From Litorilinea aerophila (GTDB lineage: Bacteria > Chloroflexota > Anaerolineae > Caldilineales > Caldilineaceae): 33,687 nt of DNA. The DNA is taken from positions 1-33,687 of the forward strand of contig CAMDEX010000038.1 in NCBI GenBank assembly GCA_945897075.1, in the 5' to 3' direction. Shown here piece by piece: positions 1 through 33,348 of this stretch (its first letter is position 1; every line of letters starts with the position of its first letter). A program made the position numbers and the translations under genes. The notes under the pieces are model-generated. The model made no database searches and was not told where the DNA came from. It worked only from the letters and a program-made list of their open reading frames with translations.

Positions 1-3000
1 GCGCCGACTTCTTCAGCCGCGGTGATGCTGCGCGCCCACCAGTCGCGGGCAGCTTTGACTTTGCCGCGCTGGTATTCATAGATGCCCTGCAAGCGATAGG
101 CTTCGGGCTGCCAGGGGCGGTAGCTCTTGGCCCAGCGTCGCGCCTGACGACAGGCCGCTTGCGCCTTGACCAGCCACTGCTTGCAGATCTCTGCGCTGGT
201 AGCCTCGGCTTGACGCAGAGAACCATCGGCCAACCCGCAATAGACCCGGCCCAGAAAGCGTCCGCCCTGTACGTCGTGTTCCTGGGCAACCGTCAAACTG
301 CGTTCCAGCAAAACCAGACCCTCGTCCAGTTTGCCTTGCCACAGAAGCGTCTGTCCCCGTTCCGCCAGGGCTACGACGACACTGATATAGTCGGGAATGG
401 CGTGGGCCAGCTCCAGATAGCGCTGAAAGGAGTCACAGGCCGCATCGAGGCGTCCTTGCATACGCTGGGCTGGACCAAGCACGGAATAGCCCCAGGCCAG
501 GACTTGGACATCGCCACCGTCCTCGCCTAGACGGATGAGTTCCTCGGCGTAGCTGGTGGCCTGGGCCACATCGCCCATATAGACGAGAGTTTCGCCGCCG
601 AGCATTGTGGGCGCGCCCCAGCCGCGCAGATTGCCCACTTGCTGGTAGGCCGCAGCCGAACGGCGGCCAAAGTCCACGGCTGCTTGGGGTTGTCCCTGCC
701 AGGATGCGTGCATTGTCAACCCCTGCATCGCGTAGCTGGTGATGACCGGTTCGTCCATCTCCGCAGCCAGAGTTTGCCCTAAACGTCCGTAGAAGCCGCC
801 GATTGGGTAAAGTCCAAAAAAATCGGCCACAGTAAGCATCCCCATATAGCCCATGACACGGAAGCGAGTGTCGTTGGCGCGCTCGGCCAGATTCAGGCTA
901 CGCATGGCAGAGAGCAGAAAGCGCTCCGGATGGCTGACGATATTGATCCAATTGACCGCTTCCAGGACGCGATTTTGCTCGATCACAATCTCTGGGCTGG
1001 GCGGCGGAAAGAGGGCAATCGCCAACCGCGGGCTAAGACGGTAGAGCAGTTGGCGTCCCACCTCGGCCAGGATGGCGCGGCGGACTGCCCACTGCGCGGT
1101 GGGCAGGGGCGCGCCCAGCAGACGCAGCGCGCCCAGCAGATGTTCTTCGGCCTGGGCGTGTTTGCCCCGCCGGTAATAAGCTTCGCCGATCTTGCGTTCC
1201 AGCCGTGCCCGCTGGATTGGGTCCCATTTGTCGCCAAAGAGACGGCTGTAGACCGCCAACGCTTTTTCGTAGTGGGCCAGGGCCTCGGCGTCGGCAGCCA
1301 CTTGCACGGCTTTGTCTCCGGCCTTGAAGAGATAGTCCTGGGCTTTCTCCCACTGCTCGGCCTGGGCAAAGTGCCAAGCCAGCAGAGCAGAAAATTCATC
1401 CAGCCGGTCGGCAAAGAGGCTCTCGATGGCCTCGCCTACCTGGGCGTGGAGTTCCCGTCGCCGCTGCATGAGGGTATTTTCGTAGGTGGCCTGCTGGGCC
1501 AGGGCGTGTTTGAAGACGTATTCCAACTCCGGCTGGCTCTGCCGCTCGCGGATCAGTTCCACCGCCAGCAGACTCTCCAACCGGCGGTCAATCTCCTCAC
1601 CGCTACGGGCCACTTCACGCAAGATACGATAGAGAAAGCTACGCCCGATGACCGCGGCCATACGCAGCACTTCCTTCACATCCTCGTCCAACCGATCCAC
1701 CCGGGCCATAATCACGCCCTGGATGTTGTTGGGAATTTGCACCGCATCAATCAGACCCGTGGCGCGCCATTGACCCGTCTCCCGGCTGCGCACGATCAGC
1801 CCGGCGCTGATCAGCGTGCGGATCACCTCCTCGACAAAGAAGGGGTTGCCATCGGCCTGTTGCACAATTCTATCGCGCGCGTGGATGGGCAGCGCTTCGA
1901 TCTCCAACAGATTGCGGATCAGTTGGGTGCTATCGCTCTGGGAAAGGGGGGTAAGCAGAATCTCCGTGTAGCGGTTGGCACTCTGTTCCTGGGCCAGGGC
2001 GCGCAGAGGGCCGATGGGCGTCTCCCAATCCGGGCGGCTGACCCCGACCAGCAGCAGGGGCACACGCTCGCTCAACGGCAGCAGATGCTCCAGCAGCCGG
2101 GCCGAGGATTCGTCCATCCAGTGGATGTCCTCAAAAACCAGAACGAGGGGGTGACTCTGGGCCAGCCGCTCGAAGAAGCGCCGGGAAGCCAGAAAAATCT
2201 GCCGCCCTAACCCTTCGCTGTCCAGATGGCGCACCCGCTCGGAAAACTGTTGGGGGATCGCAATCGTGAGCAGGCTGGCCAAATAGGGCAGAATCTCCTG
2301 ACTGGCGTCGCCAAAGAGCGGTCGCAGGTTAGCGGCCAGCTTTTCCCAGGCCGAAGCTTCGGTGTCGTCTTCGCCGATCTGGGCAAAGCGACGCAGCATC
2401 TCCTGGAAGGGCCAATAGCTGATGCCCTGCCCAAAGGAGAGGGTTCGCCCTTCCAGCCAGCGGATGGCCGCCAGATCGGTTGAGCGCTGGGCGTCTTCCC
2501 GGCTTTCGGCCAGCAGCCGGGACTTGCCCAATCCGGCTTCGCCCAGCAGGAGGAGCAGACCGCCTTCTCCGCCGCTCAACCGTTGCAACGCCCCAGCCAG
2601 GGCGGCCGACTCGGCGGCGCGCCCCACCAGCGGTGAACGAATGCCGTGGGATTCCAGCCCGCGCAGCCGGCCCGTTGCTTCCTTACGGCGCAGAGGGCGG
2701 TAGGCGGCCACCGGTTCGGTTTTGCCTTTGAGTTGAATTTTGCCCAACTCCTGCCAGTCGAAAAGGGGCGCGGCCAGCCGCCAGGTCTCCTCAGCCACCT
2801 GCGCCGTGCCTGGTTCGGCGGTCTGTTCCATACGCGCGGCCAGGTTGATGGCGTCACCCATCGCGGTGTATTCCATGCGCAGGTCGGAACCGACGGCACC
2901 GACGACGACGAGGCCGGTGTTGATGCCGATGCGGGGGAGGAGGGGGGGAAATTGTGAATTGTGAATTGTGAATTGTGAATTGTGAATGGGGAGGTTACGA

Positions 3001-3458
3001 AAGTTGTCGAGAATATCCAGGGCGGCGAGGACGGCGCGCTGGGGGTCGTCTTCGTGGGCGATGGGCGCGCCGAAGAAGGCGAGGATGCCGTCACCCATCA
3101 GCCGGGCGACTGTACCCTCGTATTGGTAGACCGGGCGGATCATCCGCTCGAAGGCGGCGTTGATAATCTCCGTCCACTCCTCCGGGTCCATCTGTTCGGC
3201 CAACGCGGTGGAGCCTTTCACGTCGCAGAAAAGCATTGTGACGACACGCCGTTCGCCCTGCATTGCGCCACTGCTGCGGGCTGCTTGCAGCTTGGCGGCC
3301 AGTTCCGGGGGGAGGAAGCGGTCAGCCGGGGAAGAGGAAGGTATGACAGGAGGAAGGGAGGAAGGGAGGAGGGCAACAGGCAGCGCGCCTCCGCAGCTAT
3401 CGCAGAATTTTGCCCCATCTCGGTTGACAGCGGCGCAGGTTGGACAGATTGTCATCAT
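1..3458 (-). CDS. Class III cyclase / AAA ATPase / TPR-like signalling protein (C-terminus beyond window edge)
   Basis: The reading frame is open from 3458 to the window start (1152 codons visible), so the C-terminus is missing. In order: a zinc ribbon (C5, C8, C19, C22); a low-complexity Pro/Ser linker (about 27-45); a class III nucleotide cyclase domain (about 70-255) with metal aspartates D79 and D123 and with N205 and R209 retained; then an AAA/NACHT-like ATPase with Walker A GEAGLGKS (306-313) and a Walker B-like LVLVFEDIH near residue 441; then long helical TPR-like repeats to the edge. The purine-selecting positions hold V117 and T198 rather than Lys and Asp, as is seen in this multidomain cyclase type, so cyclase activity and specificity are uncertain. 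GGAGG lies 2 nt before the first of two adjacent ATGs and 5 nt before the second (3455), which may be the real start. A heptanucleotide repeat encodes residues 158-170, inside the cyclase domain. It is probably a cytoplasmic signal-responsive ATPase or regulator. Confidence 0.88.
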   Translation of the reverse strand, partial: MMTICPTCAAVNRDGAKFCDSCGGALPVALLPSSLPPVIPSSSPADRFLPPELAAKLQAARSSGAMQGERRVVTMLFCDVKGSTALAEQMDPEEWTEIINAAFERMIRPVYQYEGTVARLMGDGILAFFGAPIAHEDDPQRAVLAALDILDNFRNLPIHNSQFTIHNSQFPPLLPRIGINTGLVVVGAVGSDLRMEYTAMGDAINLAARMEQTAEPGTAQVAEETWRLAAPLFDWQELGKIQLKGKTEPVAAYRPLRRKEATGRLRGLESHGIRSPLVGRAAESAALAGALQRLSGGEGGLLLLLGEAGLGKSRLLAESREDAQRSTDLAAIRWLEGRTLSFGQGISYWPFQEMLRRFAQIGEDDTEASAWEKLAANLRPLFGDASQEILPYLASLLTIAIPQQFSERVRHLDSEGLGRQIFLASRRFFERLAQSHPLVLVFEDIHWMDESSARLLEHLLPLSERVPLLLVGVSRPDWETPIGPLRALAQEQSANRYTEILLTPLSQSDSTQLIRNLLEIEALPIHARDRIVQQADGNPFFVEEVIRTLISAGLIVRSRETGQWRATGLIDAVQIPNNIQGVIMARVDRLDEDVKEVLRMAAVIGRSFLYRILREVARSGEEIDRRLESLLAVELIRERQSQPELEYVFKHALAQQATYENTLMQRRRELHAQVGEAIESLFADRLDEFSALLAWHFAQAEQWEKAQDYLFKAGDKAVQVAADAEALAHYEKALAVYSRLFGDKWDPIQRARLERKIGEAYYRRGKHAQAEEHLLGALRLLGAPLPTAQWAVRRAILAEVGRQLLYRLSPRLAIALFPPPSPEIVIEQNRVLEAVNWINIVSHPERFLLSAMRSLNLAERANDTRFRVMGYMGMLTVADFFGLYPIGGFYGRLGQTLAAEMDEPVITSYAMQGLTMHASWQGQPQAAVDFGRRSAAAYQQVGNLRGWGAPTMLGGETLVYMGDVAQATSYAEELIRLGEDGGDVQVLAWGYSVLGPAQRMQGRLDAACDSFQRYLELAHAIPDYISVVVALAERGQTLLWQGKLDEGLVLLERSLTVAQEHDVQGGRFLGRVYCGLADGSLRQAEATSAEICKQWLVKAQAACRQARRWAKSYRPWQPEAYRLQGIYEYQRGKVKAARDWWARSITAAEEVG
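2951..2985. repeat. Five tandem copies of the 7-mer ATTGTGA inside a coding sequence
   Basis: Five perfect head-to-tail copies of ATTGTGA lie in the cyclase domain of the first gene, encoding IHNSQFTIHNSQF. The frame is open on both sides and continues into the conserved RIGINTG strand. Because the unit is 7 bp, gain or loss of one copy would shift the frame. Confidence 0.95.
3330..3372. repeat. GGAAGGGA-type purine-rich low-complexity tract within coding sequence
   Basis: A GGAAGGGAGGAAGGGAGG-like tract encodes the Pro/Ser/Leu linker between the zinc ribbon and the cyclase domain. Much the same purine-rich motif recurs between genes at about 25105-25217, which suggests that an intergenic-type repeat was absorbed into the coding sequence. 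Confidence 0.6.
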
Positions 3459-3466
3459 TTCCTCCT

Positions 3467-4726
3467 TCAGGACGGATGCGCGTAACGAACCACCACATCC
3501 TCCAAAAACCAGGTCTGCATGGGACCTTTGCCTTTGACTTCGATCCAGCCGCGCGCTTCGCAAACAAAGGCATCTTTGATCAGTTCGTAGGTGGCGTGGC
3601 CGATCTGAATTTTGCCCGCCACGCCGTGCGATTCCATGCGCGCCGAAACATTCACCGCATCCCCCCACAGGTCGTAGTGAAATTTGGTTGTGCCGATCAC
3701 CCCCGCCACGGCCGCGCCGGAGTTAATGCCCACGCGAATCTCCAGATCGAGGAGACTGCCGTTGACATTGCGGCTTTGCATATAGGCGCGCATCTCCAGG
3801 GCCATACTACACAGCGCGCTGGCGTGGCTGGGGTGGGGACGGGGCACACCGGCCGCGGCCATATAGCCATCGCCGATCGTGCGAATCTTCTCCACGCCGT
3901 GCTTTTCGGCCAGGCTGTCGAAGTGGCTGAAAATCTCGTTGAGTACATCCACCGTCTGGCGGGGGGTCAGCATCTCCGAGAGCGGGGTAAAGCCAACCAC
4001 ATCGGCAAAGAGGACGCTCACATTGTCGAAGGCGTCGGCAATAGACTGGTCGCTCTCTTTGAGAAGCAGAGCAATCTCTCTAGGCAGCACGTTGAGCAGC
4101 AGCCGCTCGGTCTTCTCCTTTTCGTGTGACAAAAGATGCAGGGCAGTGTCGCGCTGGGCGACGAAATAAGAGAGCAATACAAAAATGACAGCGGCAGGTA
4201 TACCCACATCAATCACAAAGAAGATATCGCGCACCAGCGGCGACAAAAAATTGTCTGTACGCAAAAAGGGGCCAATCAGGGCGCTGAGAATGATTAAGCC
4301 GAGAAAGCCTAAAAACCAGTAAAGGGCAGTACGCGGTGTCGTGAGCAAAAGCGCGAGGAGAGGAACCAACATCGCCCAAGCAGCCACCACGCTGCCCAAC
4401 ACAAAGCCGCCCAACGACCACATCAACAAAAAGGGCAGCAAGAGCAGGATAGTCAGCAATACACGGCGCAAAAACCGGACGTTGCCCGTGATAGAAAAGA
4501 TAAGCACGCTCAAGTGGATGATCACCCCGTAGGCAAAGGGAATCGTGCCGGGCAGCCATTCGCCAAAAGCGAAATAGATCAGCCCCCACACAAAGCCAGC
4601 CATCCCGGTCATCAATGCAGTAGCGCTCGTCAGTCGTTTGCACAGCCGTTCGTCTTCCGTATCCGCCGGGCGCGCGCCGATACGTTCCACCAACGATACC
4701 TGATTATTTAAGAATTTTCTGAACAC
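3467..4726 (-). CDS. Membrane-anchored class III adenylate cyclase
   Basis: About 419 residues if translation begins at GTG 4726, which has GGAG 5 nt upstream; an ATG at 4831 is possible in frame but lies before a 15-bp inverted repeat and would add non-conserved sequence. About six hydrophobic segments (roughly 36-190) precede a helical linker (190-224, containing LLLNVLPREIA) and a C-terminal cyclase domain. Both metal aspartates (D242 in LFADVVGF, D286 in TIGDGYM), adenine-selecting K280 and D352 (in YDLWGD), and transition-state N359 and R363 are present, so ATP to cAMP activity is expected. It lies just upstream of the multidomain cyclase gene on the same strand, with 8 bp between stop and start, so the two are probably co-transcribed. 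The membrane part probably senses or transmits a signal; its ligand is unknown. Confidence 0.9.
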   Translation of the reverse strand: MFRKFLNNQVSLVERIGARPADTEDERLCKRLTSATALMTGMAGFVWGLIYFAFGEWLPGTIPFAYGVIIHLSVLIFSITGNVRFLRRVLLTILLLLPFLLMWSLGGFVLGSVVAAWAMLVPLLALLLTTPRTALYWFLGFLGLIILSALIGPFLRTDNFLSPLVRDIFFVIDVGIPAAVIFVLLSYFVAQRDTALHLLSHEKEKTERLLLNVLPREIALLLKESDQSIADAFDNVSVLFADVVGFTPLSEMLTPRQTVDVLNEIFSHFDSLAEKHGVEKIRTIGDGYMAAAGVPRPHPSHASALCSMALEMRAYMQSRNVNGSLLDLEIRVGINSGAAVAGVIGTTKFHYDLWGDAVNVSARMESHGVAGKIQIGHATYELIKDAFVCEARGWIEVKGKGPMQTWFLEDVVVRYAHPS

Positions 4727-4753
4727 AAGGACTCCAATCCTCCTGGGAACGCC

Positions 4754-4797
4754 GCCATCCCTGGCGGCCAGTGGTGACATCTGCCGCCAGGGATGGC
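4754..4797. terminator. 15-bp perfect inverted repeat between PIG-L and cyclase genes
   Basis: Arms GCCATCCCTGGCGGC and its exact complement are separated by 14 nt, just after the stop of the PIG-L gene (4812) and before the cyclase start (4726). No T-run follows, so it could be a weak terminator, an mRNA-stabilising hairpin or a dispersed palindrome. Confidence 0.5.
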
Positions 4798-4811
4798 AGT
4801 GCGCCCAATCG

Positions 4812-5639
4812 TTATAGACCGGCGTTGACAAACGGAAAGAGGATTGCCTTCTTCTCCGCTGTCAAAGGAGAACCATACTCGCACGCCTCAAAGGCTTCGG
4901 CAAATTCTACCCGCCGCCCGCGCTCCTCGCCGTAGTCGGCCACCAGCATCTCCCGATACAGCTCGGCGGCGCGGCGGAAACGGGGGGCGCGGAAGCCACG
5001 CAGCCAGGCCCGGCGCTCCTTCTCCCCCGCTGGCACTTGGGCCAGAGAGCCGTCGTTGTAGGGCAGCCATTCGTACATCTGCGAGACGTGGCAGTGCAGA
5101 GCATCGATCTTCTGTTCAAACACTTCGTCAATGTCCACCACCACATTGGGCGCAAAAGGATAGGGGCGCTGAAAGTGATCCCAGGTGTAGACGATCACCG
5201 GCATCGTCATCAGATGGGGGACATGGGAGACGACGTTGGGCACAGTCAGCAGATAGGAGGCGTCCTGCACCAGTTGGGAGGTATAGCGGTGATCCGGGTG
5301 ATAGTCGTTGGGGCGGTGGGTGGTCATCAGGTCGGGCTGGAACTCGCGGATGAGCGCGATAAGCTGGTGGCGCACTTCCAGCGAGGGCAGCAGGCTGCCG
5401 TCGTGGTTGTCCAGGGTGATGTACTCTGCGCCCACACAACGCCCCGCGTTGGCGGCTTCGATCCGCCGCCGCTGGGCCAGGGGGCCGCCGCCCATCTCGT
5501 GGTGGCCGGCGTCGCCGTTGGTCACGCTGACCATTTTTACGGTGTGGCCCAGACGGCTGTAGAGCGCGGACAGCCCGCCCGCGCCAAAATCCGCATCGTC
5601 GGGATGCGCGCCGATAATCAGAAGACGGAGGGAAGTCAT
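4812..5639 (-). CDS. PIG-L/LmbE family deacetylase (copy 1)
   Basis: A 275-residue zinc-dependent N-acyl deacetylase fold. The Rossmann-like N-terminus LRLLIIGAHPDDADF carries the metal motif HPDD, and the second metal motif NDYHPDHR lies near the middle; these define the PIG-L family, which removes acetyl groups from GlcNAc-type substrates. ATG 5639 is preceded by AAGGAG at 8 nt; the frame could extend to 5720 but that stretch is a palindromic repeat. It is the last of four same-strand genes (PIG-L, UBP finger, UBP finger, PIG-L). A hairpin repeat separates it from the upstream zinc-finger gene, so it may be transcribed independently. The family is clear but the substrate is not: mycothiol or bacillithiol synthesis, antibiotic modification and glycan deacetylation are all possible. 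Confidence 0.9.
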   Translation of the reverse strand: MTSLRLLIIGAHPDDADFGAGGLSALYSRLGHTVKMVSVTNGDAGHHEMGGGPLAQRRRIEAANAGRCVGAEYITLDNHDGSLLPSLEVRHQLIALIREFQPDLMTTHRPNDYHPDHRYTSQLVQDASYLLTVPNVVSHVPHLMTMPVIVYTWDHFQRPYPFAPNVVVDIDEVFEQKIDALHCHVSQMYEWLPYNDGSLAQVPAGEKERRAWLRGFRAPRFRRAAELYREMLVADYGEERGRRVEFAEAFEACEYGSPLTAEKKAILFPFVNAGL

Positions 5640-5676
5640 GGGGTATACTCCTTGCGGATGGTTTGTTGTGGTTGCC

Positions 5677-5732
5677 GAAACGTGAAAGATGAAACGTGAG
5701 TGTACGTGAGGTGATCTCACGTTTCACGTTTC
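5677..5732. repeat. GAAACGTGAAACGTGAG-type inverted repeat, copy 1
   Basis: Arms GAAACGTGAG (5691-5700) and CTCACGTTTC (5716-5725) pair perfectly, with further GAAACGTGA / TCACGTTTC sequence outside. It lies immediately after the stop of the zinc-finger gene at 5735. The same arm sequence forms longer hairpins at 9585 and 18271, always at gene ends, so it may terminate transcription. Confidence 0.75.
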
Positions 5733-5734
5733 TG

Positions 5735-6097
5735 TTATCGCATCGGTCTGTCCAGTTGCTTTGACCGCGAGCCGATGAAGGCGTCGTCGGCGTAACACCA
5801 GATCCAGCCCTGGCCTGGTTGGATGGTGCGCACGAGCGGATGGCCGGTGGCTTCCACGTGCTGCTTCATATGTTTGTTCTTGCTCCCATCACAGCAGCCC
5901 ACATAGCCGCAGATCAGACACATGCGCAGTTCGGGCCAGTCGTCGCCCAGCTTCACACAATCTGCGCAGACAGTGACCCCTGTCTCGCGCACGGCGATTT
6001 GACCCAAATGGCTGCACTTCCTCTCCGTCCACTGTCGGGTGAACTCCCAGCGCAGATACCATTCGGGAAAGCGAAACTTCTTGACTTTCTGGGGCAT
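5735..6097 (-). CDS. Small UBP-type zinc-finger protein (copy 1)
   Basis: A 120-residue protein that is mostly one UBP-type zinc finger (ZnF_UBP), the fold that in eukaryotic deubiquitinases and HDAC6 binds the free C-terminus of ubiquitin. Visible ligands: C and H in KCSHLGQI, C-x-x-C in VCADC, C-x-x-C in CLICGYVGCC, then HMKQH and the GH of ATGHP, and a WIWCY motif near the end. AGGAG lies 6 nt before the ATG. The N-terminus (KVKKFRFPEWYLRWEFTRQW) is charged and unlike the other copy. Bacterial ZnF_UBP proteins have no settled function. It sits between a second ZnF_UBP gene and a PIG-L gene on the same strand. I infer binding of a peptide C-terminus or small ligand, without direct support. 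Confidence 0.85.
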   Translation of the reverse strand: MPQKVKKFRFPEWYLRWEFTRQWTERKCSHLGQIAVRETGVTVCADCVKLGDDWPELRMCLICGYVGCCDGSKNKHMKQHVEATGHPLVRTIQPGQGWIWCYADDAFIGSRSKQLDRPMR

Positions 6098-6117
6098 AGA
6101 ATACTCCTGTTTATCAA

Positions 6118-6193
6118 GTTAAGGCGGACTGGCAGTCCGCCCTACGGAAAGCACCGTCTGGACGTAAGGCGGACTGGCAGTCCGCCTTACGTC
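6118..6193. repeat. Two copies of a GGCGGACTGGCAGTCCGCC palindrome
   Basis: Near-perfect 19-bp palindromes occur at 6123-6141 and 6168-6186, 45 bp apart. The second extends to a 33-bp palindrome (6161-6193) bounded by GACGTAA and TTACGTC and overlaps the stop codon of the zinc-finger gene ending at 6192. It fills the gap between the two zinc-finger genes. Confidence 0.9.
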
Positions 6194-6500
6194 AACGCTT
6201 TTGGTTGCGACCCGCGGGATGATCGGTGATGGCCGTCTGGTCCACGTAGCACCAAATCCAACTCTCGCCCGGCTGCAAGGAACGAAGCAGAGGGTGGCCG
6301 CTGGCGTGAAAGTGCGTAGTGGCATGGCGGTTCTTGGAATTGTCGCAGCAACCCACCTGCCCGCAGACGAGACACTGGCGCAAATGTACCCAACCGTCAC
6401 CCCGCGCCACACATTGGGGGCAGACGCTCTGATCGCTGGGAAAGTCGCCGATCTGGTCGAGATGGCTGCACGGGCTGTCAACGGGCGTGGTCATCGTCAT
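6192..6500 (-). CDS. Small UBP-type zinc-finger protein (copy 2), coupled to PIG-L
   Basis: A 102-residue paralogue of the neighbouring zinc-finger protein, with the same ligand order: CSHLDQI, VCPQC, CLVCGQVGCC, then HATTHFHASGHP, and WIWCYVD. Almost the whole protein is the finger domain. Its start overlaps the end of the upstream PIG-L gene (stop at 6478) by 23 bp, which points to translational coupling and a shared role. GGAG lies 3 nt before the ATG at 6500 and 9 nt before an in-frame ATG at 6494, so 6494 is a credible alternative start. Its stop codon overlaps a palindromic repeat. Function unknown; a ligand-binding adaptor for the deacetylase is inference only. Confidence 0.87.
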   Translation of the reverse strand: MTMTTPVDSPCSHLDQIGDFPSDQSVCPQCVARGDGWVHLRQCLVCGQVGCCDNSKNRHATTHFHASGHPLLRSLQPGESWIWCYVDQTAITDHPAGRNQKR

Positions 6501-7341
6501 TTACTCCGTGGCAAAGGTCTTCGATGAGAGGCGCGCCCGGCGTGGGCGTCAAGGGCGGTTGCACCTGGACAAAGTGTTCATGCCCAAACGCGGCGCGGAA
6601 TACGGCGTCGGGCACACGCATCATCTGGTGCTCCCCGCCAAATTGGGTGCGGTGACAGGCCAAGCCCTGCCGCTTCAGAGGTGCGTCTGCGCTACAGTCC
6701 AGGCCGTGGGTGATGAGCGCGGCCATCGGGTCTGGTTCGTCCAAACGGAAAGCGCCAAATGAGCTGACGTCCATGCCCTGGCTGACCTGCCACTCCACAA
6801 AAGCGCGCCAGCCCTCCTTCAGAATCGCCGCATAGAAAAGACGCTGGGGCTGCCACGCCGTCCCCGCCTCCGGGTAGGCCGTCGCATCCCCGGCTGCGGC
6901 ATAGGCGGTTGTGGTGTGGCGGCTGGCCGCGATGTGGTCCGGGTGGCCGTACCAGCCGCCCGGTTCAAAGGTGATGACGATATGCGGGCGCAATTCACGG
7001 ATCAACGCCACAATTCTCCCGACTGCTTCGGTGGCCGGGGATTGCACAAAGGCACGCGGATCGTCGTTCTCGGCGCTGCCCGCCATCCCCGAATCCCGGT
7101 AGCCCAGAAAGCGCAGTTGCTGGATGCCCAGCGTCTTCACCGCGCATTCCAGTTCGCCCTGGCGCACCTGGCCCATCGTCTCCCGTGTCGCCAAAGCGGG
7201 ATCGCTGCTCTCCCCCACCTCGCCGCGGGTGACAGAGCAGAGGGTGACGTGGCTGCCGGAGCGGGCATAGCGGACAAGAGAGCCGCTCACCGCGCCCTCG
7301 TCGTCCGGGTGGGCAAAGATCGCAAGCAAACGATAGGGCAT
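6478..7341 (-). CDS. PIG-L/LmbE family deacetylase (copy 2)
   Basis: A 287-residue zinc-dependent deacetylase of the LmbE/MshB/BshB group. The N-terminus has AIFAHPDDE (metal motif HPDD, with the general-base Asp next to it) and the mid-protein motif WYGHPDH supplies the other metal ligand. ATG 7341 has AGGAA 7 nt upstream; an upstream ATG at 7395 lies in a mobile-type palindrome and is less likely. It overlaps the next gene, a UBP zinc finger, by 23 bp. It is clearly diverged from the other PIG-L protein nearby, so this is not a recent duplication. A role in low-molecular-weight thiol synthesis or conjugate cleavage (MshB/Mca/BshB-like) is possible, but no other thiol-pathway gene is in the window. 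Confidence 0.9.
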   Translation of the reverse strand: MPYRLLAIFAHPDDEGAVSGSLVRYARSGSHVTLCSVTRGEVGESSDPALATRETMGQVRQGELECAVKTLGIQQLRFLGYRDSGMAGSAENDDPRAFVQSPATEAVGRIVALIRELRPHIVITFEPGGWYGHPDHIAASRHTTTAYAAAGDATAYPEAGTAWQPQRLFYAAILKEGWRAFVEWQVSQGMDVSSFGAFRLDEPDPMAALITHGLDCSADAPLKRQGLACHRTQFGGEHQMMRVPDAVFRAAFGHEHFVQVQPPLTPTPGAPLIEDLCHGVNDDDHAR

Positions 7342-7380
7342 TGGGTGATTCCTGGTGGCGTGTGGATTGGATGGAAAAGA

Positions 7381-7527
7381 ATTGGGTCTCTTCAAAATCA
7401 GTTAAGGACTCTATAGCCGCGGATAGTGGGTAGCGCGGATTTGTCTCGTCTCACACAGACCCATTCGCGCTGCCCATTATCCGCGGCTATCACACCCGTC
7501 TTGTAACTAACTTTGCATAGACCCAAT
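7381..7527. mobile_element. 147-bp palindromic MITE-like element
   Basis: Outer ends match as inverted repeats (ATTGGGTCT, then CAAA and AGTTA in register), and an inner pair of 28-bp arms (7413-7440 and 7463-7490, built on ATAGCCGCGGATA) matches with about four differences. It encodes nothing and lies between the DinB-like gene and the PIG-L gene. No target duplication is obvious. It could also act as a terminator for the DinB-like gene. Confidence 0.6.
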
Positions 7528-7532
7528 AACCT

Positions 7533-8039
7533 TTAGAACGCGTCACCCTTCAGCCCAAAGGTGCCTTTGACTGCTGCAATCTCGCCGCTCAGGGCAGCCA
7601 GATGTCCCGCCATCAGATTGGCAATACACCAGGCATGACTCTGTGTACCCGCGCCGATCATCGAAAGATCGATCATCCGCTCCAAGTCTGCCCCGCCCGC
7701 ATAGGCCATAGCCGCCCCAAAGACGGCCTGGGCGTAGGCGTTCAATTGGGCGAAGTCCACTTGCACGCTCTTGCCCCACTCTGCTGTAATATCGGGGCGC
7801 ACAACACTCACACCGGTCTTGCCCGCCCACTCGCCTTCATAGAGCGCCGGCTGGCCATTAAAAAAGCTGTGAATCTGCCAATCTGTGCTGATCACTCCGT
7901 GGGCATAAGTGGCGGCAATCGTCTGCATCGTGCCGCCGGGGTCGCGGTGGGCAATTTCGGACGACACATCAGCCATCACCTGCTGGATGTAATAGCTGGC
8001 AAAACCGACAGCCTGCTGGAGTACTTGGTTTCCATTCAT
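7533..8039 (-). CDS. DinB-like four-helix metal-binding protein
   Basis: A 168-residue mostly helical protein resembling the DinB/YfiT superfamily of bacterial metal-dependent enzymes and thiol S-transferases. Supporting features are the metal-type histidine in TYAHGVISTDW and the C-terminal helix AGHLAALSGEIAAVKGTFGLKG, where the H...GEI pattern followed by a Gly-Lys end is typical. The full three-His set is not clear to me, so catalysis is uncertain. ATG 8039 has AGGAG 9 nt upstream. It is transcribed away from the Gfo/Idh gene. DinB-like enzymes often use mycothiol or bacillithiol, and a PIG-L deacetylase follows on the same strand, so a thiol link is conceivable but not shown. Confidence 0.65.
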   Translation of the reverse strand: MNGNQVLQQAVGFASYYIQQVMADVSSEIAHRDPGGTMQTIAATYAHGVISTDWQIHSFFNGQPALYEGEWAGKTGVSVVRPDITAEWGKSVQVDFAQLNAYAQAVFGAAMAYAGGADLERMIDLSMIGAGTQSHAWCIANLMAGHLAALSGEIAAVKGTFGLKGDAF

Positions 8040-8176
8040 TGTGGGTTTCTCCTGTGGTGCTAAACGGATCGAAGTTATCTGTACAACGTCTTCAATGTAC
8101 CCTAATTCGCCCCGCCTGTACAGTCCAAAAAATGTTCATCCACTGCTCACTTGGGCGTGTACTTTGTCAGAGCCTC

Positions 8177-8185
8177 TGCTACAAT
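8177..8185 (+). promoter_or_regulatory. Possible extended -10 promoter for the Gfo/Idh gene
   Basis: TGCTACAAT matches an extended -10 (TGnTATAAT) with one base changed; no good -35 is seen. It lies 54 bp before the ATG at 8239, in the 199-bp gap between divergent genes. Confidence 0.35.
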
Positions 8186-8238
8186 AACCCGAATCTTTCT
8201 TTTCCTACAAATCAACTGACGGATGGGAGAACAGTGCA

Positions 8239-9552
8239 ATGACACGACCACTTGAACTGGCGCTGCTTGGTGCGGGCGCACGCGGCGCACACGCCTACGC
8301 ATCCTATGCCTTTGCCCACCCGGACGAGGTGCGCTTTGTGGCTGTGGCCGAGCCGGATCCGCTGCGCCGACGCCGCTTTGCCGACGAACACGACCTGGAC
8401 GCCAGCCAGGTTTTTGCCTCCTGGGAAGAACTGATCGCCGCGGGCAAGCTGGCCGACGGCGCGCTCATCACCACCCAAGACCAGATGCACGTAGAGCCAG
8501 CCATCGCTGCCCTGGAAGCAGGCTACGACGTACTCCTGGAAAAGCCAATGGCCGACTCGCTGGCAGGCTGTGTGCGGCTGGTGCAGGCCGCCGAGCGCAC
8601 AGGGCGCAGCCTGCAAATCTGCCACGTTCTGCGCTACACCCCCTTCTGGCAGACGTTGCACGGGATTCTGACCAGCGGGCGGCTGGGACGCATCATCACC
8701 GTTGAACACCGGGAGAATGTGGCCTGGTGGCACATGGCGCACAGCTTTGTGCGTGGCAACTGGCGCAGCCGCGCGCTCTCCACGCCGATGATCCTCGCCA
8801 AATGTTGCCACGACCTGGACCTGCTCGTCTGGAATCTGAACGACCCGGTGCTGCGCCTCTCGTCCGTGGGCAGTCTGATCCACTACACGCCCGAAAGCGT
8901 CGGCCCCACAATTCCCCTGCGCTGTACCGACGGCTGTCCGATTGAGAGTGAATGCCCCTTCTCTGCGCTGGGCATCTATCTGGATTCCCGGCTGCTGCCC
9001 AGTCGTCCTCGTCTGGCCGAGGGCGAGGGCGCGCCGCGCGTCTGGCCCTATCTGACAATCTCAGACGACCTGAGTTGGGAAGGGCGCTTGCAGGCATTGA
9101 AGAGCGGCCCTTACGGGCGCTGCGTCTACCGCTGCGACAACGATGTGGTCGATCACCAGACGGTGCTGATGGAGACGGCCAGCGGCGCATCGGTGACGCT
9201 GGTGATGCACGGTCACTCTAACGAGGAGCATCGCAGCCTGCGTTTCGATGGCACACAGGCCAGTCTGCGCGCCCGTTTTGGCGGTAAATCAGAGATTGTC
9301 ATCTACAATCACGGGGGCGGCGAGGAGGTAGTGGCGATTCCCGCCGCGTCCAGCGGTCACGGCGGGGGCGACTGGGGTACTTTCGCGGCCTTCTTGCGGG
9401 TGCTACGTGGCGAAGAAAAGGCGCTGACCGACGTGCGCGCCTCGTTGGAAAGCCACCTGCTCGCCTTTGCCGCCGAAGAAGCCCGGCTCAGCCGCCAGGT
9501 GATTGATATGGCTGCTTTCCGCGCCCAGGCAGAGGGGATGGCTAAGGAGTAG
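8239..9552 (+). CDS. Gfo/Idh/MocA family NAD(P)-dependent oxidoreductase
   Basis: A 437-residue dehydrogenase. The N-terminal Rossmann fold has the dinucleotide motif GAGARG (11-16). The hallmark EKP motif (101-103) supplies the catalytic/structural Lys, and HDLD (191-194) supplies the usual His/Asp pair. It is longer than the typical 330-390 residues because of an insert after the catalytic helix holding three cysteines (C229, C233, C239; CTDGCPIESEC), which could bind a metal. It is near intact at both ends, with GGGAG about 8 nt before the ATG. It probably oxidises a hydroxyl of a sugar or cyclitol; the substrate cannot be read from sequence. It is a stand-alone gene facing a convergent helicase gene, with a strong hairpin between them. 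Confidence 0.88.
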   Translation: MTRPLELALLGAGARGAHAYASYAFAHPDEVRFVAVAEPDPLRRRRFADEHDLDASQVFASWEELIAAGKLADGALITTQDQMHVEPAIAALEAGYDVLLEKPMADSLAGCVRLVQAAERTGRSLQICHVLRYTPFWQTLHGILTSGRLGRIITVEHRENVAWWHMAHSFVRGNWRSRALSTPMILAKCCHDLDLLVWNLNDPVLRLSSVGSLIHYTPESVGPTIPLRCTDGCPIESECPFSALGIYLDSRLLPSRPRLAEGEGAPRVWPYLTISDDLSWEGRLQALKSGPYGRCVYRCDNDVVDHQTVLMETASGASVTLVMHGHSNEEHRSLRFDGTQASLRARFGGKSEIVIYNHGGGEEVVAIPAASSGHGGGDWGTFAAFLRVLRGEEKALTDVRASLESHLLAFAAEEARLSRQVIDMAAFRAQAEGMAKE

Positions 9553-9584
9553 CTGCGAAAAAGCGAGAATTGCCCCAACGAGGC

Positions 9585-9636
9585 GTGAAACGTGAAACGT
9601 GAGAGTGTACGAATGCTCTCACGTTTCACGTTTCAC
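9585..9636. terminator. Perfect 21-bp stem hairpin between convergent genes (GAAACGTGAAACGTGAGA family, copy 2)
   Basis: Arms GTGAAACGTGAAACGTGAGA(G) (9585-9605) and the exact complement (9616-9636) flank a 10-nt loop; TTTTCTT follows on the plus side. It sits between a plus gene ending at 9552 and a minus gene ending at 9676, so it probably serves as a bidirectional terminator. Confidence 0.75.
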
Positions 9637-9675
9637 TTTTCTTATCGAAGAAATGGGATTTGTTGAGCCGTTTCC

Positions 9676-11001
9676 CTACCCCGCTCGTCGCGTACCCGGC
9701 GAACGCTGCGGGCGGGGGTTGTTCCAGTTCTGGCGGTTGTTGCGGGCGGCGTCACCACCGACGCGGGCGGGACGGGCGGTGTTGCTGCCCAGGAGGTTGT
9801 GGCCTCCCCGCTGGCTGCGCAGGGAAGCGGGCTGGTTTTGGTGGGCGTGGGCGATGGCCGTCTGACGTTCAGGCACAAAATCCCCGTAGTCAAAATCGGG
9901 CAGCCGTCGCCGTTCCAGAGGCTCGCCCAACACCTTTTCGATATCGCGCACCATCACCTCGTCGCTCTCCGTGACAAAGGTAAAGGCATCGCCGAGCTGC
10001 TCGGCCCGCCCCGTGCGCCCGATGCGATGGGTATAGGCATCCACCGTGTCGGGGATGTCGAAGTTGATGACGTGGGAAATATCCGTCACATCAATGCCCC
10101 GGGACGCGATATCCGTCGCCACCAGAATGTCGTACTTGCCCTCGCGGAAGCCGTCAATGGACTCCTGGCGGCGGTTCTGGGCCATATTTCCTTGCAAAGC
10201 AGAGGTGTTGAAACCCTCGTTGGCGAGGAGCAGGGCCAGATTGCGCGCCCGCCGTTTGGTGCGGGTGAAGACCAGCACGCGGCCGGTGGCGGTCTGCGCC
10301 AGCATCGCCAGCAGCAGTTTGTTTTTCAGCTTTTCGGGGATGGGGTAGATGGCGTGGGAGACGGTCTCCGCCGGTGCGATCATCCCAATCTGCACAGTGG
10401 CCGGGTTGTTCAGAATCTCCGCCGAAAGGATGCGGATGTCGTCGGGCATGGTGGCCGAGAAGAAGAGGGTCTGGCGCTGTTTGGGCAGATGTTGCAGAAT
10501 GCGCCGGATGTCGGGCAGGAAGCCCATATCACACATGCGGTCGGCCTCGTCCAGCACCAGCACCTCCACAGCCGAGAGGTCAATGTCGCGCTCGCCGATG
10601 TGGTCAAGCAGACGGCCCGGACAGGCGACGACAATATCCACGCCAGCACGAAGCGCGGCCAACTGGGGGCGCTTGCTTACCCCGCCATAGATGGGTGTGC
10701 TGCGCACTTTTGTGTTCTTGCCCAGGTCAACAAATGTCTGGTGGATCTGCTCGGCCAGTTCGCGGGTGGGCGCAACGATCAGCACGCGAATTTTGCGCTG
10801 GGGTCCGCTGAGCAGCCGTTGGAGGATGGGCAGGGCAAAGGCGGCGGTCTTGCCTGTGCCCGTCTGGGCCAGACCCAGCACATCGCGCCCTGACATGACG
10901 AGGGGGATGGCCTGTTCCTGGATGGGGGTGGGCGCTGTGTAACCGGCGGCTTCGATGGCCGTGTTCAGGCGCGCGTCAAGAGAAAAATCAGCAAAGTTCA
11001 T
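9676..11001 (-). CDS. DEAD-box ATP-dependent RNA helicase, RhlE-like
   Basis: A 441-residue helicase with all core motifs: Q-motif region (PTPIQEQAIP, about 25-34), motif I AQTGTGKT (45-52), PTRELA (78-83), DEAD (151-154), SAT (182-184), and motif VI HRIGRTGR (325-332). A basic, Asn/Arg/Gly-rich tail from about 380 is typical of RhlE/CsdA-type helicases and aids RNA binding. It unwinds structured RNA in ribosome assembly or mRNA turnover, often in the cold. ATG 11001 has AGGAG 6 nt upstream. A promoter at 11120-11149 implies a leader of about 110 nt, which may carry regulation. The final residues are encoded near a palindromic terminator. Confidence 0.93.
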   Translation of the reverse strand: MNFADFSLDARLNTAIEAAGYTAPTPIQEQAIPLVMSGRDVLGLAQTGTGKTAAFALPILQRLLSGPQRKIRVLIVAPTRELAEQIHQTFVDLGKNTKVRSTPIYGGVSKRPQLAALRAGVDIVVACPGRLLDHIGERDIDLSAVEVLVLDEADRMCDMGFLPDIRRILQHLPKQRQTLFFSATMPDDIRILSAEILNNPATVQIGMIAPAETVSHAIYPIPEKLKNKLLLAMLAQTATGRVLVFTRTKRRARNLALLLANEGFNTSALQGNMAQNRRQESIDGFREGKYDILVATDIASRGIDVTDISHVINFDIPDTVDAYTHRIGRTGRAEQLGDAFTFVTESDEVMVRDIEKVLGEPLERRRLPDFDYGDFVPERQTAIAHAHQNQPASLRSQRGGHNLLGSNTARPARVGGDAARNNRQNWNNPRPQRSPGTRRAG

Positions 11002-30213: not shown

Positions 30214-33200
30214 ATGACAGAACAATTCTTCGAGAAGCCCATCCTCAACTCGCCCTACGCCTACCCAGCCCACCATTGGGAACTGGACGCGGACGGCCAG
30301 CCGACCAACCGGATTCTGGAATTTCGGCGCACGGCCAGGTTTGTGACGCCTGTGCCCAAGCCTAAGAAGCGGCGGCAATCCCAGGATCAGCAGTTGGCGC
30401 TGGTGCTGGGTGAGGGCGCGGGCGTCTCCACCGCGGAACAACTCTACGACCCGACCGGCAATATCAACGCCATTCGCGCCCACGTGGACCGCTGGCGGCA
30501 GATTCCCGACCCCAGCCAGTGGGGGGTGACGCCGGAGACGCAACGGCTGTTGCAGCACTGGCGCAGCCATCCCTTCCAGGGGGTGCGCCCCTTCTTCTGC
30601 CAGGTAGAGGCGGTGGAGACGGCCATCTGGCTGGCCGAGGTGGCTCCGAATTCTGCCCAGGGCAAGGCGACGCTGGAATTGCTCCAACGGGCCAGCGAAC
30701 AGGCGAACCCAGCATTGGAGCGGATTGCTCTGAAGCTGGCCACGGGCGCGGGCAAGACGACGGTGATGGCCATGCTCATCGCCTGGCAGACCATCAACGC
30801 GGTGCGCCGCCCCCAGAGCAGACGCTTCACACGGGGCTTTCTGATTGTGACGCCGGGGATCACCATCAAAGACCGGCTGCGGGTGCTGCAACCCAGCGAC
30901 CCGGACAGCTATTACAAAAGCCGGGAACTGGTGCCCGGCGATATGCTGGACGATCTGAACCGGGCCAAAATTGTGATCACCAACTATAGTTTTTCAGATA
31001 ATCATTTGTAGGGGCGCTGCTTGCTGCGCCCGATGCACAGGAGCGGGCGCAGCAAGCAAGCGCCCCTACACGGAAAATCTTTACCTGTAAAACTATACCA
31101 CGCCTTCAAGCTGCGCGAGCGGATGGAGGCGGCCGCGGGGACGCGGGCGCTGCTGCAAGGGCGGGGGCCAGCCTTGCAGACCACCGAGACCGAAGGCCAG
31201 ATGATCCAGCGGGTGATGCCGGATTTGATGGGCATGAAGAATGTGCTGGTGATCAACGACGAGGCCCACCACTGCTACCGGGAGAAACCGGACAACGATG
31301 ATGTTGACGAGCTGACCGGGGACGAGCGTAGAGAGGCGGAGAAGGCCAACGAGGCGGCCCGGCTCTGGATTTCCGGGCTGGAAGTGGTGAAGCGCAAACT
31401 GGGCGTGCCGAAGGTCTACGATCTCTCGGCCACGCCCTTTTTTCTGCGCGGCTCCGGCTACGCTGAGGGCACACTCTTCCCGTGGACGGTGAGCGATTTC
31501 TCCCTGATGGACGCCATCGAGTGCGGGATTGTCAAGCTGCCCCGTGTGCCCGTGGCCGACAACATCCCCGGCGGCGATATGCCCAAATTCCGCAACCTGT
31601 GGGAGCACATCGGCAAGAAGATGCCCAAAAAAGGGCGGGGCAAGGCCAAGACGCTGGACCCACTGAGCCTGCCCGCAGAGCTTCAGACCGCGCTGGACGC
31701 GCTCTACGGCCACTACGAAAAGATTTTTGGCCTGTGGGAAGCCGCGGGGATTGGGGTGCCCCCGGTCTTTATTGTGGTCTGCAACAATACCTCCACCTCC
31801 AAGCTGGTCTACGACTACATCGCTGGTTTTCACCGCCTGGGGGAAGACGGGGAGACGGAAGCCTACAACGCGGGGCGGCTGGCCCTCTTCCGCAACTACG
31901 ACGAGGCGGGCAACCGGCTGGCCCGGCCCAATACCCTGCTGATTGACAGCGAGCAGCTTGAATCCGGCGACGCCCTGGACGCGGACTTTCGGGAGATGGC
32001 CGGGGACGAGATCGAGCGCTTTCGCCGGGAGATTGTGGAGCGCAGCGGCAACCAGGCCGATGGACAGAACATCAGCGACCAGGAGTTGCTGCGCGAGGTG
32101 ATGAACACCGTGGGCAAGGAGGGGCGGCTGGGCGGGGGCGTGCGCTGTGTGGTTTCGGTCTCCATGTTGACCGAAGGCTGGGACTGCAACACAGTGACCC
32201 ACGTCCTCGGCGTGCGCGCCTTTGGCACCCAACTGCTCTGCGAGCAGGTGGTGGGGCGCGCCCTGCGCCGCCAATCCTACGAACTGAACGAAGAGGGACT
32301 CTTCAATGTGGAGTATGCGGATGTCTTTGGCATCCCCTTCGATTTTACAGCCAAGCCGGTGGTGGTGGCGCCCAAGCCGCCCAAGCAGACGGTGCAGGTG
32401 CTGGCTGTGCGGCCAGAGCGGGACGCCCTGGAAATTCAGTTCCCGCGTGTGGATGGCTACCGGGTGGAGCTGCCCGCGGAGAAGCTGACCGCCCGCTTTG
32501 GCCCCGACTCTGTGCTGGAACTGACGCCCCTGCTGGTCGGCCCTTCGGTGACGCGCAACGAGGGCATCATCGGTGCGGGGATTGACCTGAATGTGAAGCA
32601 TCTGGCCCAGACGCGCCAGGCCACCATCCTCTACCACCTGACCCACCGCCTGCTCTACACCAAATTCCGCGACCCAGGCGAAGAACCGAAACTGCACCTC
32701 TTCGGCCAGTTGAAGGGGATAGCCCGCCAGTGGCTGGAAGGGGGCTACCTGCGCTGCACCGGCGGCACCTACCCGGCCCAACTGCTCTACCAGGAGATGG
32801 CAGACCTGGCCTGCGAGCGCATCCGGGCGGCCATCAGCGCATCCATGGCAGGCGACAGGCCCATCAAAGCGATTTTGGACGCCTACAACCCCACGGGGTC
32901 CAGCATCCACGTCAATTTCAACACCTCCAAAGAGACCCGCTGGCAGACCGACCCGCGCAAGTGTCAGATCAACTGGGTGGTGTGCGACAGCGATTGGGAG
33001 GCGGAGTTCTGCCGGGTGGCCGAGGCGCATCCCCGTGTGCGGGCCTATGTGAAGAACCAGGGGCTGGGGCTGGAAGTGCCCTATCTCTACGGCTCGGTCA
33101 AGCGCGCGTACATTCCCGATTTCATCGTGCAGATCGACGACGGGAGGCCCGACCCGCTCAATCTGGTGGTGGAAATCAAGGGCTTTCGGGGCGAGGATGT

Positions 33201-33348
33201 GAAGGACAAATCCAACACCATGCGCAACTATTGGGTGCCGGGGGTGAACAACCTGGGCACGTATGGCCGCTGGCAGTTTGCCGAATTTAAGGCAGACTTC
33301 GAGATCGAGGCGGATTTTGAGAAGTTGATCCAAGCCGCCAGCGCGTAG
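30214..33348 (+). pseudogene. Type III restriction enzyme subunit (Res, BPTD_3080-like), split by a palindromic insertion
   Basis: The gene spans about 1044 codons but has a TAG at 31009-31011. The first part (265 residues) carries the N-terminus MTEQFFEKPILNSPYAYPAH and helicase motif I ATGAGKT (176-182), ending after VITNY. The second part (from 31012 in the same frame) has motif II DEAHH, motif III SATPFF, motif VI EQVVGRALRRQ, and a C-terminal PD-(D/E)xK-type region (YIPDFIVQ ... VVEIKG). Restoring the presumed sequence (NY joined to HAFKLRE) gives a normal helicase-endonuclease. Res cuts DNA with the Mod methylase; no mod gene is near. Reinitiation (TTG 31021 or ATG 31033) has no ribosome site. 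Probably inactive, unless TAG is read through. The stop is the TAG of the repeat at 33345. Confidence 0.88.
30987..31095. mobile_element. 109-bp palindromic MITE/REPIN-like insertion in the res gene
   Basis: Ends TAGTTTTTCAG and, on the other strand, TAGTTTTACAG match at 10 of 11 bases. TA is duplicated outside (30985-30986 and 31096-31097), as in IS630/Tc1-type insertion. The core is a pair of inverted imperfect palindromes with a GTAGG head (TGTAGGGGCGCTGCTTGCTG and its near complement) across a short loop. The insert adds 111 bp, a multiple of three, and its TAG is the only stop in the res frame. It encodes no transposase. Confidence 0.85.

Follow-up and report, generated by a model that had tools for sequence, protein, structure and literature searches.

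Small bacterial ZnF_UBP (zf-UBP) proteins are typified by RPA1320 of Rhodopseudomonas palustris (PDB 2IDA) and go by the NCBI name “UBP-type zinc finger domain-containing protein”; the fingers of HDAC6 and USP5 are readers of the ubiquitin C-terminus, whose carboxylate is gripped by the arginine of the CGRY motif, as established from HDAC6/USP5 structures. On plasmids of Rhodococcus, Rhizobium, and Agrobacterium, a small ZnF_UBP gene is packed against the gene for a cyclic nucleotide (cNMP)-binding thioredoxin reductase or a flavin adenine dinucleotide (FAD)-dependent oxidoreductase. The PIG-L/LmbE deacetylases, whose default substrate is an acetylated amino sugar, include MshB and Mca of the mycothiol pathway, BshB1 of the bacillithiol pathway, and diacetylchitobiose deacetylase. 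Here, we describe a locus of Litorilinea aerophila in which members of both families lie side by side, a pairing that is limited to this one genus. The stretch analyzed (“the window”) comprises 33,687 nucleotides and is one whole contig (C38; GenBank CAMDEX010000038.1) of a metagenome-assembled genome (MAG) of the Caldilineaceae, whose 397 contigs add up to 6.38 Mb at a completeness of 95% and a contamination of 8.8%. Gene coordinates and Pfam scores above the cut-offs (28.2 bits for PF02585, 22.7 bits for PF02148) bear out the order PIG-L, ZnF_UBP, ZnF_UBP, PIG-L on one strand given in a preliminary description of this DNA, and transcription runs from PIG-L A through ZnF_UBP A and ZnF_UBP B to PIG-L B:

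7341-6478, minus strand: PIG-L A, 287 aa, MshB/Mca-like, AHPDD at residues 10-14, HPDH at residues 133-136, PF02585 97.9 bits.
6500-6192, minus strand: ZnF_UBP A, 102 aa, PF02148 52.8 bits, 2ida at 5.3e-25.
6097-5735, minus strand: ZnF_UBP B, 120 aa, PF02148 55.6 bits, phmmer to 2ida at 2.4e-23.
5639-4812, minus strand: PIG-L B, 275 aa, PIG-L/LmbE-family N-deacetylase dependent on zinc, AHPDD at residues 11-15, HPDH at residues 114-117, PF02585 95 bits.

To judge whether the pairing extends beyond the genus, we turned to the Chloroflexota, where zf-UBP genes occur in 85 of 350 genomes. Among 100 ZnF_UBP neighbourhoods reaching at most 8 kb to each side, 96, amounting to 1.275 Mb, lie outside the genus, and a PIG-L profile run over these 96 found a single PIG-L, 3.2 kb from its ZnF, against 1.4 expected from the overall density (176 PIG-Ls in the 161.3 Mb of 40 of these genomes). 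None lay within 2.5 kb of a ZnF, and a conserved gene system with phylum-wide co-occurrence of the two families is thus ruled out. No PIG-L/ZnF fusion was seen, and no PIG-L is listed in the incomplete gene tables for eight plasmid stretches around a ZnF_UBP, which represent the Pseudomonadota, Actinomycetota, Bacteroidota, and Deinococcota. The preliminary description had suggested that the PIG-L and ZnF_UBP products act together and had looked to conserved PIG-L partners in Chloroflexota as the check; this suggestion is not supported, with co-occurrence outside the genus no higher than gene density predicts and the families coming apart inside it. Its remark that no system of such content had been described agrees with our literature search, in which no paper of the library consulted connected PIG-L with zf-UBP.

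The window's own MAG contains only two zf-UBP genes, both in the cluster, and eight PIG-L genes in its 6.38 Mb, so that a ZnF position between two PIG-Ls is unlikely to have arisen by chance within this genome; with these gene numbers, the chance that a given ZnF falls within 1.5 kb of a PIG-L is about 0.004. The previously noted 23-bp overlap is found between PIG-L A and ZnF A (6478-6500) when the first ATG is taken as the start of ZnF A, and it shrinks to 17 bp from the next ATG, the start used in orthologues. Values of dN/dS against orthologues from genus-mates (about 0.03 to 0.22) indicate that the cluster genes are maintained under selection. Given the 8.8% contamination, an assembly chimera was considered and ruled out, because independent MAGs of the genus (G374, G377, and G379) hold parts of the same arrangement on orthologous contigs. 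Tandem duplication of a ZnF/PIG-L pair was likewise ruled out, as the preliminary description had anticipated from the dissimilarity of the PIG-Ls: these are 32% identical over 141 aa, and the ZnFs, 46% identical, fall into different clades, which argues against any recent duplication of the pair.

The four genes are part of a wider island, the other features of which are as follows:

8239-9552, plus strand: Gfo/Idh/MocA oxidoreductase (PF01408), in divergent orientation at the island edge; at the same place in G377, G378, and G379.
7533-8039, minus strand: DinB-like protein, probably of the DinB_2 superfamily (DinB_2 E 0.0023), upstream of ZnF A in all four ZnF-bearing islands of the genus.
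6165-6191: copy 2 of a palindromic interspersed repeat, in the gap between the two ZnF genes.
6120-6146: palindromic interspersed repeat, copy 1, between ZnF A and ZnF B.
5684-5732: imperfect inverted repeat (arms 5684-5700 and 5716-5732), between ZnF B and PIG-L B.
3467-4831, minus strand: class III nucleotide cyclase (PF00211, 205.6 bits), next gene after PIG-L B.
3-3668, minus strand: second cyclase, of zinc-ribbon/class III cyclase/AAA/TPR type, in an open-ended reading frame of 1222 aa cut by the contig end, with its real start near 3458.

Comparison of the island across seven genomes (the window's genome, G000, and its genus-mates G374 to G379) revealed a mosaic. G374 carries DinB, ZnF A, ZnF B, PIG-L B, and a cyclase, and is devoid of PIG-L A; G379 carries DinB, PIG-L A (split over two contig ends), ZnF A, PIG-L B, and three cyclases, and is devoid of ZnF B; and G377 carries DinB, both ZnFs, and a large cyclase/AAA/TPR gene with neither PIG-L. 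In G375 (DinB and PIG-L B) and G378 (MocA and PIG-L B), as well as in G376, PIG-L B is present and zf-UBP is absent from the whole genome. PIG-L B has orthologues of 84 to 91% identity in five genus-mates, of which three lack zf-UBP altogether, and the only orthologue of PIG-L A within the genus is that of G379. Farther away, orthologues of PIG-L B (68 to 76% identity, four other genera) and relatives of PIG-L A (43 to 48% identity, five other genera) are found, none of them adjoining a ZnF. Across the ZnF-bearing islands of the genus, DinB and a cyclase are present in 4/4, PIG-L B in 3/4, and PIG-L A in 2/4, so the constant flanks of the ZnFs are DinB upstream and class III cyclases at the downstream end, and the PIG-Ls are the variable part. 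Synonymous divergence between G000 and G379 is 0.19 for PIG-L A, 0.31 for DinB, 0.57 for ZnF A, and 0.61 for PIG-L B, a threefold spread along the island that suggests recombination within the locus.

Both fingers score as zf-UBP family members, with 2IDA and then the HDAC6/USP fingers as their nearest relatives. For ZnF B the fold agrees as well: its model (predicted local distance difference test [pLDDT] score, 70) finds 2ida as the best Foldseek match (E 7.6e-7), followed by HDAC6. With RPA1320 the window fingers share size, zinc-ligand spacing, the WxWCYxD motif, and fold; they differ in standing two in a row, from different clades, and in the N-terminal extension of ZnF B, which is conserved within its clade. 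Pairs of unlike fingers recur elsewhere, and tandem ZnF_UBP genes from two different clades, about 1.5 kb apart, are found at three loci (L058, L067, and L082, in G278, G155, and G211) of a family other than the window's. With HDAC6 and USP5 the window fingers have in common the fold as well as the Trp and Tyr of the pocket, two residues that are mostly retained across 109 Chloroflexota fingers, whereas the position of the CGRY arginine is occupied by S, D, N, G, another residue, or a gap in 109/109 (N in ZnF A, G in ZnF B), and most of them have Asp in place of the final Cys of CYxC. Because the arginine that grips the carboxylate is gone, canonical reading of the ubiquitin tail by these proteins is unlikely, although it is possible that they read some other peptide.

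What, then, keeps company with bacterial ZnF_UBPs? We counted neighbours with home-made profiles, taking genes at most 2.5 kb from a ZnF as near and deriving the expectation from the outer flanks. Outside the genus, near cyclases numbered 9 against 1.7 expected (Poisson, 8e-5) and thioredoxin reductase (TrxR)-like genes 12 against 5.2 (Poisson, 0.007). A dominant immediate neighbour family of ZnF_UBP was rejected, none being found among the 96 loci. Fusions and direct pairs provide a stronger link to signalling and redox than these neighbour statistics. In G379, a 1345-aa zinc-ribbon/cyclase/AAA/TPR protein, of the same kind as the protein encoded at 3-3668 of the window, carries a finger of the ZnF A clade as its C-terminus. 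This fusion belongs to an operon-like run (L053, contig C83 of G379, 1091-9736) that also has genes for a second ZnF_UBP, a response-regulator/Pyr_redox_2 protein, a cNMP-binding/HATPase/CoA-binding protein, and a DinB/MDMPI_N protein. At another locus (L104), a ZnF is fused to cNMP-binding and histidine kinase domains. On the Rhodococcus plasmid NZ_CP142144.1 (L213, 3501-5909), trxA, ZnF_UBP, and a cNMP-binding thioredoxin reductase follow clpB with overlapping ends, and on the Rhizobium and Agrobacterium plasmids ZnF_UBP directly precedes the FAD-dependent oxidoreductase. The window resembles these plasmid pairs in the close packing of a small ZnF_UBP gene against the next one; it differs in that the partners are PIG-Ls, with two cyclases beginning just past PIG-L B, and no TrxR or cNMP-binding gene is present in the island.

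We read the locus as a gene-swapping island local to the genus, in which the ZnF_UBPs would serve as cNMP/redox adaptors and the PIG-Ls would be separable genes rather than parts of a conserved system. Our confidence in this reading is moderate, because the neighbour statistics are limited by kinship. The stable frame of the island would run from the DinB-like protein through the small ZnF_UBPs to the class III cyclases, with the two PIG-Ls as separable passengers, and the island may be co-transcribed. The RPA1320-type ZnF_UBPs would be adaptors, folded around zinc and binding other proteins, in a branch of cyclic-nucleotide/redox signalling, and may dock on or regulate the adjoining cyclase, as the fused form of the relative would do in cis. 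Each PIG-L would be an ordinary N-deacetylase that depends on zinc and acts on an acetylated amino sugar, in a reaction of its own.

Several observations weigh against this reading. The enrichment is affected by kinship, a single family (f31) contributing six of the nine loci with a near cyclase; collapsed to families, cyclases are near in 4 and far in 1, and any signalling gene is near in 11 and far in 6. The immediate same-strand neighbours of ZnF_UBP genes are diverse across the phylum, where no single family reaches more than 4 of the 96 loci, and no DinB was found near a ZnF outside the genus. Genes for class III cyclases abound in these genomes, so the one adjoining the cluster in the window may be there by chance. 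Finally, the PIG-L A/ZnF A overlap, which is found in two genomes, fits co-translation.

The best-surviving alternative is plain hitch-hiking, according to which unrelated small genes have come together in an island that recombines and has MocA and the cyclases as its borders, and ZnF, PIG-L, DinB, and cyclase share no function. The mosaic content over seven genomes, a synonymous divergence that varies from gene to gene in one pair of genomes (0.19 to 0.61), and the palindromes interspersed between the genes are in its favour. It is harder to reconcile with a DinB-ZnF-cyclase frame in every ZnF-bearing island and with the existence of a cyclase-ZnF fusion, and we consider it possible, if somewhat unlikely. 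Still less probable is a true functional unit, in which the ZnF_UBPs bind and regulate the PIG-L deacetylases or deliver substrate to them. It is tempting in view of the tight one-strand packing, the overlap, the purifying selection on all four genes, a layout improbable by chance within one genome, and the presence of PIG-L B beside a ZnF in three of the four ZnF-bearing islands and of PIG-L A in two. However, PIG-L is not enriched near ZnF_UBP outside the genus, listed at the plasmid matches of the four other phyla, or fused to a ZnF; PIG-L B persists in three genus-mates without zf-UBP and also in other genera; and G377 holds ZnF A and ZnF B with no PIG-L.

Deacetylase chemistry is probable for both PIG-Ls, because both retain the HPDD and HPDH motifs (at 10 and 133 in A and 11 and 114 in B) of the PIG-L/LmbE fold family, to which both belong and which they share with MshB, Mca, BshB1, and diacetylchitobiose deacetylase. 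PIG-L A is nearest to MshB/Mca (match to MshB 1q74, 3.5e-30), and the nearest solved structures to PIG-L B are diacetylchitobiose deacetylase (3we7) and BC1534 (2ixd). In contrast to those enzymes, neither window protein attains a curated NCBIfam subfamily cut-off for MshB, Mca, or BshB: PIG-L A scores 162 bits where MshB needs 224 and 154 where Mca needs 277, and PIG-L B scores 112 bits with its nearest model, BshB1, against 182.5. The partner enzymes of the thiol pathways were not found either, with BshC absent from 10/10 genomes of the family and no MshC above the cut-off, the one cysteinyl-tRNA synthetase (CysRS)-like gene of the window's genome falling below it. Membership in the mycothiol MshB/Mca and bacillithiol BshB groups is thus ruled out, synthesis of either thiol is not supported, and the hint at thiol metabolism in the preliminary description falls away. 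For the same reasons, a low-molecular-weight thiol locus, with the PIG-Ls as MshB/BshB-type enzymes, DinB as a thiol transferase, and ZnF_UBP as a redox-sensitive partner, is the least probable alternative, despite the nearest models of the two PIG-Ls, the DinB-like gene upstream, and the recurrence of TrxR-like genes near ZnF_UBP. As a separate observation, the Caldilineaceae genome G389 encodes, besides an ordinary CysRS, a 438-aa MshC-like paralogue (G389:C32:159713-160870; 393 bits against a cut-off of 485), which is perhaps a separate cysteine ligase.

Among the flanking genes, the DinB-like protein scores 18.8 bits against the DinB_2 gathering cut-off of 24.8 (its orthologue at L051, 26.9), and its helical, low-confidence model (pLDDT 54) is too weak for a structure search. 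The cyclase at 3467-4831, whose true start probably lies downstream of 4831, has orthologues at the same place in G379 (84%) and G374 (76%). The cyclase at 3-3668 shows 46 to 49% identity over about 780 to 880 aa to the cyclase beside ZnF B in G377, to one on contig C87 of G379, and to the ZnF-fused cyclase of G379. The palindromic repeat has the core GGCGGACTGGCAGTCCGCC, with nine exact core copies in the genome, and it is also found in three genus-mates, some copies being closely paired. Elsewhere in the window (30214-33348, plus strand), a restriction/helicase-like gene is divided by a stop into parts of 265 and 775 aa in the same frame, possibly reflecting an in-frame stop or a sequencing error.

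Taken together, the analysis removes a tempting but unsupported PIG-L/ZnF_UBP system and brings out an under-described pattern: bacterial ZnF_UBPs, which no longer bear the arginine for the ubiquitin tail, are repeatedly accompanied by cyclases, by proteins that bind cNMP, and by TrxR-like reductases. The ZnF A clade includes the finger fused to the cyclase-AAA-TPR protein of G379, and one might speculate, as a long shot, that small bacterial ZnF_UBPs serve class III cyclases as regulatory subunits that can be detached, being fused in this relative and free in the window, and that they read a non-ubiquitin peptide or C-terminus and link redox state to cNMP production, with PIG-L deacetylation added in this genus. 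The fused cyclase-ZnF protein makes the unsettled role of bacterial ZnF_UBPs testable.

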